Shown here: positions 57,238 to 63,152 of the stretch, one piece after another
Position numbering within the stretch: the first letter of the stretch is position 1
Layout: each line of letters opens with the position of its first letter
Assembly (NCBI GenBank): GCA_022071965.1
Contig: JAJVIQ010000017.1
Span: 1-64,000, forward strand
Origin: Gammaproteobacteria bacterium
Lineage (GTDB): Bacteria; Pseudomonadota; Gammaproteobacteria; JAJPIJ01
DNA: 64,000 nt
Reading direction: 5' to 3'
Program-made: the position numbers and the translations under genes
The notes under the pieces: generated by a model
What the model was told of the DNA's origin: nothing
The model's input: only the letters and a program-made list of their open reading frames with translations
The model's database searches: none

Positions 57238-58056
57238 CTACAGCCGGCAGCCGGCGAGCGCTTCGGGGCAGTGCCTCACGAGGCCAGACTGGCGGGCAAC
57301 GCGCAACGTGTGTGGCGCGGCGTCGTACCGGGCACATTTCTCTGCGATTCCGAGTCTGTCGAGCGGACTGATAGTCGTGCCGGACATCACCTTCAGCACG
57401 TGGGTGTGGATCATCGTCGTGCTGACGTCGCTGTGGCCGAGCAGCTCCCACAGCGTGCGGCCGTAGTTCAGCTGCTCGCGAAGTGCGTCTATCATCGATA
57501 GCGGCATCATGACGACCCGGTCCCTGGCGCCCCTGCCCTCCCGAACGACGATCACGCGACGGCCGAAATCCAGGTCCATGATCCGCAGGCGCAGACCCTC
57601 CGTCGATCACATCCCCGTACCGTACAGCAGTCGCGCAAGCAGCGCCGTGGGTTGGGGCACGGCTTCGAGAAGCGCCTGGACCTCCTGTGTCGTGAGTACG
57701 GTGGGGATCCGGCGCCTGGCTTGAGGGCGCCCGATATCCTGCATCCATGGCATTTCGATGCCGAGCACTTCCCTGTAAAGGAAAAGTATCGCGCCAAGTG
57801 TCTGATGATGCGTTGAAACCGACACTTTGCGTTCGTTGGCGAGATGACTCAGGAAGGCCTCGACCTCCATACCCCCCATCTCACGCGGGTGTCGAATCCC
57901 GTGCCAGCGGATGATGAAGCGCGCCCGGTAGACGTACGCTTTTTCGGTTCTTATGCTGTAATGCAAATACCGTATCCGTTCGCGCAGCTGGTCCAGCAGG
58001 CGGACCGACTGAAAGGGAGGGCTGTCCGGTTTATGGTTTCTTTCATTACTGTACAT
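57238..58056 (-). pseudogene. intI: Integron integrase IntI, inactivated
   Basis: A tyrosine recombinase of the IntI family. The N-terminal half is clear ([20 protein letters not shown], then [16 protein letters not shown] and ARLLYGTGM). At 57607-57609 a TGA replaces the catalytic box I Arg (expected TGMR-x-x-EGLRLR; the frame continues STEGLRLRIMDLDFG). Near 57464-57472 an in-frame deletion joins LREQL directly to RTLWELLGHSDVSTTMI, removing roughly 95 residues, including the HxLRH box and IntI-specific insertion. At 57406-57408 a CAC His stands where the nucleophilic Tyr belongs (MIHTHVLK versus MIYTHVLK). All catalytic groups are lost. Its start is uncertain: the first ATG lies in the LexA box. 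Confidence 0.9.
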
Positions 58057-58655: not shown

Positions 58656-58667
58656 CGCTGGCACGGC

Positions 58668-58717
58668 GCATAACAACCGGTTGCAGCGGACGGAGCAGTT
58701 GAACCGGAGCGTTAGGC
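58668..58717 (+). repeat. attC site, complete but short
   Basis: Left core GCATAAC (one mismatch to GCCTAAC), inner arms CCGGTT (58677-58682) and AACCGG (58702-58707), right core GTTAGGC (58711-58717). The GTTGCAGCGGAC-like wording is typical of attC sites. At 50 bases it is shorter than the usual minimum of about 57-60, as if the terminal loop had been trimmed. Confidence 0.75.
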
Positions 58718-58748
58718 GTCGCGAATTCAACCCACCGTCTCCGCTACT

Positions 58749-59141
58749 ATGAAACGTACGCTCATCAGTTCAGGTTCGTCTTTCGAGCAAGAGATCGGCT
58801 ACTCCAGAGCCGTAGTTCAAGGCGACTGGGTTTTCGTTTCGGGCACAACGGGCTTCGACTACTCGACGATGACTATCGCTGATGGAGTCCTGGCGCAGAC
58901 AGAGCAATGCTTGAAGAACATCGAAGCCGCGTTGCTCCAGGCCGGTTCCAGCCTCAAAGATGTGGTTCGCGTGACCTACGTGCTCGCGGATGGGAAGGAA
59001 TTCCCGGAGTGCTGGCCCGTGCTGCGCAAGTACTTCGGCGAGGTACGCCCCGCGGCGATGATGATCTCGGCAAGCCTCATGGACCCACGGATGCGCATCG
59101 AAATCGAGGCCACGGCGCTCAAGCAAGGAGAGCAGCTGTAG
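58749..59141 (+). CDS. RidA family protein, gene cassette 3
   Basis: 130 residues, YjgF/YER057c/UK114 fold: EIGYSRAVVQGDWVFVSGTT, NIEAALLQAGSSLKDVVRVT and RIEIEATAL. Canonical RidA uses an Arg (PARS-type motif) to deaminate imines; the aligned position here reads RPAA, so this is a Rid subtype lacking that Arg and probably not an enamine deaminase. The ATG is 31 bases after the right core of one attC, and the stop is 13 bases before the left core of the next, so it occupies a cassette. Confidence 0.88.
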   Translation: MKRTLISSGSSFEQEIGYSRAVVQGDWVFVSGTTGFDYSTMTIADGVLAQTEQCLKNIEAALLQAGSSLKDVVRVTYVLADGKEFPECWPVLRKYFGEVRPAAMMISASLMDPRMRIEIEATALKQGEQL

Positions 59142-59154
59142 TGGAAATAGTGAC

Positions 59155-59232
59155 GCCTAACCCGTCGTTGCACCCGACGTCCGCCAGCCGGCTTCGCCGT
59201 CTGTCGCCCTCGGGTGCACTCCAACGCTGAAG
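59155..59232 (+). repeat. attC site with decayed right core
   Basis: Left core GCCTAAC (59155-59161), arms CGTTG and CACCCGA (59166-59177) pairing with TCGGGTG (59210-59216) and CAACG (59222-59226), and a GC-rich loop. The right core should be GTTRRRY but reads GCTGAAG, two mismatches including the T needed beside the cleavage point. So the site is recognisable but probably no longer recombines. Confidence 0.7.
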
Positions 59233-59244
59233 GATCCCCGAAGA

Positions 59245-61869: not shown

Positions 61870-62670
61870 TTGCGAGTGGACGAATGGCCGCGCTATGAGG
61901 CTTTGGTTGCGAAGCGCTGGGAGTACTACCGCCCGCGTTTCGAGAGGTTCGCGCGCGGTGAGCGGCTGTCCTGGAACTGGGCGGCATTTGTGGCCACCCT
62001 GGCGTGGTTGCGCTACCGCAGGCTGTATGGGTGGTCGTGGGTCTATTTCTTCGTTTCGACACCGTTCCTGCTGGCCGTCTTTTTCGTGGGCGTTCTTGCC
62101 GGCGATTCATGCGAGCGAGCGCTTGACCCCACCCCGGGCCGGATTGTCGGCCTGACTGTCCTCACGCTGCTCTGCCTGGGATGGATCCTTCCGCCGCTTG
62201 TTGCTGATTATCTGTACTTCATGCACGTGCAAGCCTCCATCGGGAAGAACGCCGGAGGCACGCGCACTGGCGGGGCCGTGGGCGCCCTGGCGATGCAGGC
62301 ACTGGTGCTGATCGGATCTGCCGTCGCCGCGCCGGGCTACGCGGTCTATACGCACCGGGCCATGGTCGCGGAAGGTCTGCTGCTGGCAGGTGCCGCGAAG
62401 GTTGCAATACAGGAGTATCTGAGCGAGCACCAACGTCTGCCAGCACGGATCGATGAGGTGACCAAGGAAGTCTCGAACAGGCATGGGGACCGGCTCGTGG
62501 TCGAATCCGATGGAACCATCAAAGTGATCTTCGGGGACAGGAGCAGAAAACTGTCCGGTCACAGTGTGTCATTCGTTCCGGAGAAGAAGGATGGCCGAAT
62601 TGTCGATTGGGTTTGCGGCAGCAAGGATCTCCCTGACCGGTGCCTGCCAGCCGGCTGTCGTCAGTCTTGA
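61870..62670 (+). CDS. DUF2628-like membrane protein with C-terminal type IV pilin-like domain
   Basis: 266 residues, TTG start (GTG at 61876 also possible). Residues about 1-100 are DUF2628-like: a basic, aromatic N-terminus (YEALVAKRWEYYRPRFERFA) and two helices. From about residue 145 it resembles a type IV pilin without leader: hydrophobic ALVLIGSAVAAPGYAVYTHR, AMVAEGLLLAGAAKVAIQEY, and a C-terminal disulfide-type WVCGSKDLPDRCLPAGCR. No prepilin peptidase site is present. A fused pilin domain held by the membrane part is the simplest reading. Function unknown. Confidence 0.65.
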   Translation: MRVDEWPRYEALVAKRWEYYRPRFERFARGERLSWNWAAFVATLAWLRYRRLYGWSWVYFFVSTPFLLAVFFVGVLAGDSCERALDPTPGRIVGLTVLTLLCLGWILPPLVADYLYFMHVQASIGKNAGGTRTGGAVGALAMQALVLIGSAVAAPGYAVYTHRAMVAEGLLLAGAAKVAIQEYLSEHQRLPARIDEVTKEVSNRHGDRLVVESDGTIKVIFGDRSRKLSGHSVSFVPEKKDGRIVDWVCGSKDLPDRCLPAGCRQS

Positions 62671-63152
62671 TCGTCCCGGGAATGCATGCCGATTGCCTTG
62701 TGCCCGACCGCGCGTTCGAGCGGACCGCCCGCCTGCGGGGCAGACGGGCACACTGGCAACTCTGCCGCACGGGAGCGGCTCAACGTCAGGGCGCTTCCAT
62801 TACGGCTTACCGCTGACCGCCCTTCGAAAGAACAGCGGGAGCACGATCCAGGGATGCATGCGTTTGCGATGTCAGCTGCAATGAGCGGTGCATGTCCTAT
62901 GGCTGCTGGAACACTCCGAGGGGCTGCCGCCCGGACCAAAGTTCAAACCCCTGCAGACAGGCTTCGTGCCGATGATATCGTACGCGTTGATGACCCCTGC
63001 CCCCGTCAGTTCCGCCGTTCGGGCCCAGGCTGCCAGGAACCAGGCTGCCAGGAACCAGGCTGCCAGGAACCAGGCGGAGACCGCGATCGAATGTCGAAAG
63101 TCGGTTCCGGGCGCCCTCGTCCCGATCGTGAGCATCTGCGCCATCATTGCGT
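62671..63152. other. Gap with tandem repeat, no clear gene
   Basis: 482 bases. A 92-codon frame on the plus strand (62888-63166) and a 91-codon frame on the minus strand (62872-63147) cover the same bases; each translates the tandem repeat as a short peptide repeat, and neither matches a known family. I do not call either. Confidence 0.4.
63025..63075 (+). repeat. 15-bp tandem repeat, about 3.4 copies
   Basis: The unit CCAGGCTGCCAGGAA occurs three times without mismatch at 63025-63039, 63040-63054 and 63055-63069, followed by a partial fourth (CCAGGC). The unit length is a multiple of three, so copy-number change would not shift a reading frame. No spacer structure, so not CRISPR. Confidence 0.9.

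Follow-up and report, generated by a model that had tools for sequence, protein, structure and literature searches.

The window, as we call the whole 64,000-nucleotide stretch of DNA analyzed here, holds at positions 61870-62670 of the forward strand a single uninterrupted open reading frame of 266 amino acids, with no internal stop or frameshift. Translation starts at TTG, with an in-frame GTG at 61876 as a possible alternative, and GC content by codon position is coding-like in both halves of the frame. The initial annotation had read this gene as a DUF2628-type protein joined to a type IV pilin-like domain, and Pfam searches agree on the pilin part: PF00114 (Pilin) scored 50.6 bits across residues 163-264 (E 4e-13, cut-off 22). 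The tail also matched solved Neisseria pilins by sequence (E 1.5e-7), and these two matches exclude chance. The N-terminal part is DUF2628-like, its best PF10947 (DUF2628) stretch, residues 23-80, reaching 21.1 bits and so falling slightly short of the cut-off of 23. The features of the gene are as follows.

61870..62670, + strand: whole open reading frame, DUF2628-pilin fusion, 266 aa, TTG start
61870..62253, + strand: DUF2628-like N-terminal region, residues 1-128, with the PF10947 stretch and two membrane helices
within 61870..62253, + strand: near-invariant W35, W37, W46, Y49 and R50 of the DUF2628-like region
62026..62103, + strand: membrane helix 1, residues 53-78 (hydropathy 54-85; model helix 53-78)
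62131..62223, + strand: membrane helix 2, residues 88-118 (hydropathy; model helix 87-125)
62254..62262, + strand: GGT linker, residues 129-131 (alignments)
62266..62430, + strand: predicted pilin alpha1, residues 133-187, including a third membrane helix at ~134-156 (model)
62308..62358, + strand: best-conserved stretch of the family, pilin residues 14-30 (alignment of 30 fusions)
62431..62667, + strand: predicted pilin globular head (model), strands 208-211, 217-220, 232-240 and 243-250
62614..62658, + strand: canonical pilin C-terminal cysteine pair, C249 and C263, with C258 as an extra cysteine

The W.W and W..YR motifs, the two membrane helices and the GGT linker are all present in the N-terminal half, and W35, W37, W46 and R50 are invariant across 10 DUF2628 proteins with various tails. 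Roughly one in two relatives has an N-terminal zinc ribbon, which the window protein lacks. In the C-terminal half, the pilin hallmark pattern first noticed there is literally present as YAVYTHRAMVAEGLLLAGAAK (residues 157-177), as is the disulfide-type end WxC...PxxC, in the form WVCGSKDLPDRCLPAGC (residues 247-263); C249, P260 and C263 are invariant in 30 fusions. The tail had been placed behind two membrane helices, both of which we found, but that count left out a third, the N-terminal part of the pilin alpha1 itself: hydropathy gives three membrane segments, at residues 54-85, 88-118 and 133-159.

Predicted structure and assembly signals

An AlphaFold model, with the window protein and 29 fusions as input, had a mean pLDDT of 85.9 and values mostly of 81-96 across residues 141-266. 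It contains helices at residues 53-78 and 87-125, then one 55-residue helix at 133-187 followed by the four strands listed above, giving the tail a predicted architecture of a long alpha1 packed on an antiparallel beta-meander. Structure prediction had been suggested as a check of the pilin assignment, and it returned a type IV pilin fold: strong matches in the PDB (Foldseek, VIA-align) were type IV pilins without exception, led by 4v1j (Z 13.1 over 110 residues), and the match to 5vxx (Z 12.5 over 130 residues) began at pilin residue 1. The modeled alpha1 superposes on the full-length pilins 5vxx, 2hi2 and 1oqw from their residue 1 onward. Because the third membrane segment is the N-terminal part of alpha1, the tail would correspond to an entire pilin minus its leader, more than a head. 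A separate model of residues 1-134 contained helices at 53-81 and 87-128, and this DUF2628 region alone had no Foldseek match in the PDB with E under 5. The window protein is thus predicted by these models to be a complete type IVa pilin fold set on a DUF2628-like two-helix region.

The signals that would lead a pilin into a fiber are missing. There is no class III signal peptide or prepilin cleavage site, alpha1 being internal and starting at residue 133 of 266, and the G/F/E5 prepilin motif is absent, in line with the initial reading that the protein has no prepilin leader. Glu5, which efficient pilin assembly needs (PMC5059446), occurs in 65 of 65 leadered pilins compared to 0 of 32 DUF2628 fusions and 0 of 12 other leaderless tails. 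With both leader and Glu5 absent, PilD-type cleavage and polymerization are not expected, and the proposal that the pilin part is a fixed domain rather than a polymer unit holds up, its periplasmic orientation being the probable one. The GGT(S) preceding alpha1 is, judging from sequence comparison, a hallmark of DUF2628 and not a prepilin cleavage site, since a GGTS-type linker also precedes other types of tail. We hold with confidence that this is an inner-membrane protein predicted to carry a complete pilin fold without the signals for building a pilus.

Distribution and evolution of the fusion

A scan of 84,980 species genomes with the single protein gave no close relatives; relatives in species genomes came from an alignment of the N-terminal region. 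Searches with this region across 369 genomes of the class turned up DUF2628-pilin fusions in five others, some of the fusions having an N-terminal zinc ribbon. The suggested survey of DUF2628 proteins for the same tail rests on 80 named loci from the species-genome scan, 29 of which have a complete leaderless pilin tail and 4 of which (Massilia, Variovorax) have a tail of alpha1 only. Every one of these 33 loci is proteobacterial, none of the 33 Firmicutes DUF2628 loci carries a pilin tail, and the remaining 14 are other, some with tails that look SPOR-like by eye. Carriers of the fusion include Methylovorus, Methylophaga, Sideroxydans, Gallionella, Arenimonas, Acinetobacter, Pseudomonas mangrovi and Woeseiaceae. 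At E values up to 0.001, PF10947 was recognized in 30 of 30 aligned fusions and Pilin in 28, and Zn_Ribbon_1 occurs on 16 of the 30. Relatives on Variovorax plasmids have the same single-frame order, the full-length ones bearing the RefSeq name 'DUF2628 domain-containing protein.' The single genome of the same genus that was searched (G001) yielded no orthologue of the full fusion.

The fusion first seen in the window therefore stands, but not as an isolated oddity, as the architecture is that of a widespread family. The pilin fold was known before, as were DUF2628 and leaderless pilin-like proteins. We found no paper on a DUF2628-pilin family or on a class of leaderless tails in a literature search that took in few subscription journals, and we conclude that the fusion represents a real, undescribed family in beta- and gammaproteobacteria.

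Two variations on the tail were seen. Four Massilia and Variovorax DUF2628 proteins (L091, L097, L103, and L105) keep an alpha1 of the ALPAYQDYT type and have lost the head, and no downstream frame of these loci contains one. In five others (L053, L055, L067, L147, and L155), a C-terminal DAW...LxSxGxDxxxxTxDDI resembles the end of the pseudopilin GspG; we rejected these as GspG-like tails, the motif being suggestive only and statistically unsupported (PDB profile match E 0.31, HH probability 1.6%, beaten by 1 of 20 shuffles).

In close pairs, dN/dS of the tail is ~0.24-0.32, similar to the rest of the protein, and DUF2628-pilin tails evolve under purifying selection in the relatives where this could be tested. 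Across the 30 fusions, conservation is highest in pilin residues 14-30 (2.98 bits, versus 2.04 for the head and 2.50 for DUF2628), with G14, P22, Y24, Y27 and R30 as the conserved positions. Part of this stretch melts on assembly in real pili (PMC5059446), yet it tops conservation here although assembly of the fusions is not expected. In the pilin tree, the window copy forms a long and divergent branch, and it has a two-residue deletion inside the conserved alpha1 segment. In the free tree, which rests on few columns, 8 of 32 DUF2628 tails fall among other groups; holding all DUF2628 tails together gave a higher likelihood (p-AU 0.607). As the enforced single origin scores better, separate origins of the tails from each genome's own pilin are not supported. 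On these alignments, the tests reject neither a single origin of the fusion nor one origin for all leaderless tails (p 0.322).

Genomic context and related proteins

PilO is present in the genome carrying the window fusion and in 30 of 33 fusion carriers, compared to 20 of 24 proteobacterial carriers of other DUF2628 proteins (p 0.32); as carriers of tail-less DUF2628 proteins do not differ significantly, we do not take co-occurrence with PilO to prove a role in pili. Within the class, 134 of 185 genomes have PilO, including 11 of 11 with an identified leaderless tail versus 123 of 174 of the rest (one-sided p 0.026), a count that is small, uncorrected and phylogenetically non-independent and comes from a sample in which leaderless tails are incompletely enumerated. 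No conserved neighbor gene lies beside the fusion in 33 loci, and we read a large recurring cluster of neighbors as antisense reading frames of the fusion gene itself.

Roughly 3 kb upstream of the fusion gene, positions 57610-58056 (reverse strand) and 58660-59235 are probable integron remains. They comprise the N-terminal part of an integron-type tyrosine recombinase (Phage_int_SAM_4, 87.7 bits), whose reading frame ends early, and a RidA-family gene (58749-59141) between two attC-like stretches whose core sites are all imperfect. The fusion gene itself was dismissed as an integron cassette, as the attC-like sites lie upstream and none was recognized around the gene. Positions 63025-63075 hold a short tandem repeat whose unit, CCAGGCTGCCAGGAA, is 15 bases long.

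Pilin-like proteins of a comparable kind have been described. XAC3805 of Xanthomonas citri, first called pilA, and AZ78_3612 of Lysobacter capsici are reported to lie far from pilus clusters; XAC3805 is without a prepilin leader according to Dunger et al. 2014 and has been described in print as no true pilin, and AZ78_3612 was judged to be probably no bona fide pilin (PMC10333488, PMC4960238). These proteins carry a cytoplasmic GYF_2/DUF4339 domain where the window fusion has its two-helix DUF2628 region, and their homologues are annotated as DUF4339. Work on X. citri by Petrocelli et al. may concern a leaderless relative.

Our searches brought up further leaderless tails. One M48-family peptidase (L075, in G085) ends in a leaderless pilin domain, as does a GYF_2 protein (L076) that appears to be of the same type as XAC3805. 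Six proteins of roughly 620-830 residues (L013, L015, L019, L030, L086, and L087) also have such a domain at the C terminus; L086, the only large one scanned, had no Pfam match besides it. The window's own genome (G000) encodes a second leaderless pilin-tail membrane protein, L036 (contig C7:9790-10101), which is small and multi-helix; its relatives (L035, L085, and L069) come from the genus, the family and one further genome. Among genus members, dN/dS is ~0.16 for the first part of this small protein and 0.08 for its pilin head, and it is under purifying selection.

Possible roles of the pilin tail

Compared to type IVa major pilins (PilE/PilA), the tail shares the fold, the alpha1 stretch 14-30 and the C-terminal cysteine pair, but the fusion is without leader and Glu5 and has two membrane helices before alpha1. 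Other DUF2628 proteins (PF10947) share its N-terminal region, with pilin tails in beta- and gammaproteobacteria and SPOR-like tails, others or none elsewhere. The best explanation, which we advance tentatively, is that the tail is a fixed, non-polymerizing periplasmic pilin domain serving as a docking or sensing module. The N terminus would be cytoplasmic and the pilin head periplasmic, where it would hold a C249-C263 disulfide; prepilin peptidase would not cleave the protein, and it would not enter pili. The tail would join the cytoplasmic-side DUF2628 part, often with its zinc ribbon, to a membrane or periplasmic partner. The likeliest one would be type IV pilins or the platform that assembles the pilus, contacted via alpha1 segment 14-30, since constraint falls on the membrane-embedded alpha1 and since PilS senses PilA by intramembrane contact (PMC6058289 and its reference 22). 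Even so, that the ligand is a pilin or the pilus machine is a possibility we would not put at even odds, the lack of conserved neighbors and the weak PilO association speaking against a pilus link. A docking or sensing role is favored by the Variovorax and Massilia versions with alpha1 and no head, by the other DUF2628 proteins bearing extracytoplasmic tails (SPOR-like by eye), by the architecture of DUF2628 plus YARHG with a kinase (PMC3355149) and, with the limits given above, by the presence of PilO in all 11 class genomes with an identified leaderless tail. Against it stand the long branch of the window copy, its alpha1 deletion and its apparent absence from G001.

That the pilin fold serves a generic purpose in the periplasm, binding ligands or acting as a scaffold with no part in pili, is nearly as likely as docking to pilins or the pilus platform and is a serious contender, if short of probable. 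DUF2628 takes several unrelated tails, as the SPOR and YARHG cases illustrate, the fusion has no conserved neighbors, and its PilO co-occurrence is not significantly different from that of tail-less carriers; on the other side, constraint is strongest on the membrane-embedded alpha1 rather than on the head surface, and some relatives keep alpha1 without a head. That the fusion is a functionless or decaying by-product in the window's genome we consider improbable: the long branch, the adjoining decayed integron and the failure to find it in the same-genus genome searched would fit, but the frame is open with coding-like codon-position GC, the fold is predicted with high confidence and relatives are under purifying selection.

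More improbable still is that the protein acts as a modular minor pilin and carries DUF2628 into the pilus as cargo. Its tail does retain the cysteine pair and the full pilin fold, and modular pilins such as PilB of Streptococcus sanguinis (Raynaud et al. 2021) likewise combine a pilin module with another domain, but in the opposite order: they begin with leader and pilin module, have Glu5 and are built into pili (PMC8179133). In the window protein the pilin is C-terminal, leader and Glu5 are both absent, and two extra membrane helices precede alpha1. As the survey in that study demanded an N-terminal pilin motif (PMC8179133), fusions of the window type fell outside it. Finally, a sequencing or assembly artefact, or the frameshift between two genes named at the outset as a refuting outcome, is practically out of the question; we found nothing in its favor, and this reading is refuted because the same single-frame fusion recurs in 29 other named genomes or MAGs and on Variovorax plasmids.

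Returning to the docking or sensing module, the tail may belong to a proteobacterial class of tethered, non-polymerizable pilins that reads or regulates type IV pili via alpha1 contact, an extension that we regard as rather unlikely. Members of such a class (DUF2628, M48 peptidase, GYF_2 and others) would stay in the inner membrane and convert the state of the pilus, or the supply of pilins, into an output in the cytoplasm.

Annotation easily mistakes leaderless pilin tails for pilins or buries them beneath a DUF label. Should these tails contact the pilus machine, they would be natural decoys or sensors locked in the preassembly state of a pilin, and they would be useful for asking what partners a membrane-bound pilin has before polymerization. 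If they do not, the family would represent reuse of the pilin fold as an ordinary periplasmic domain.
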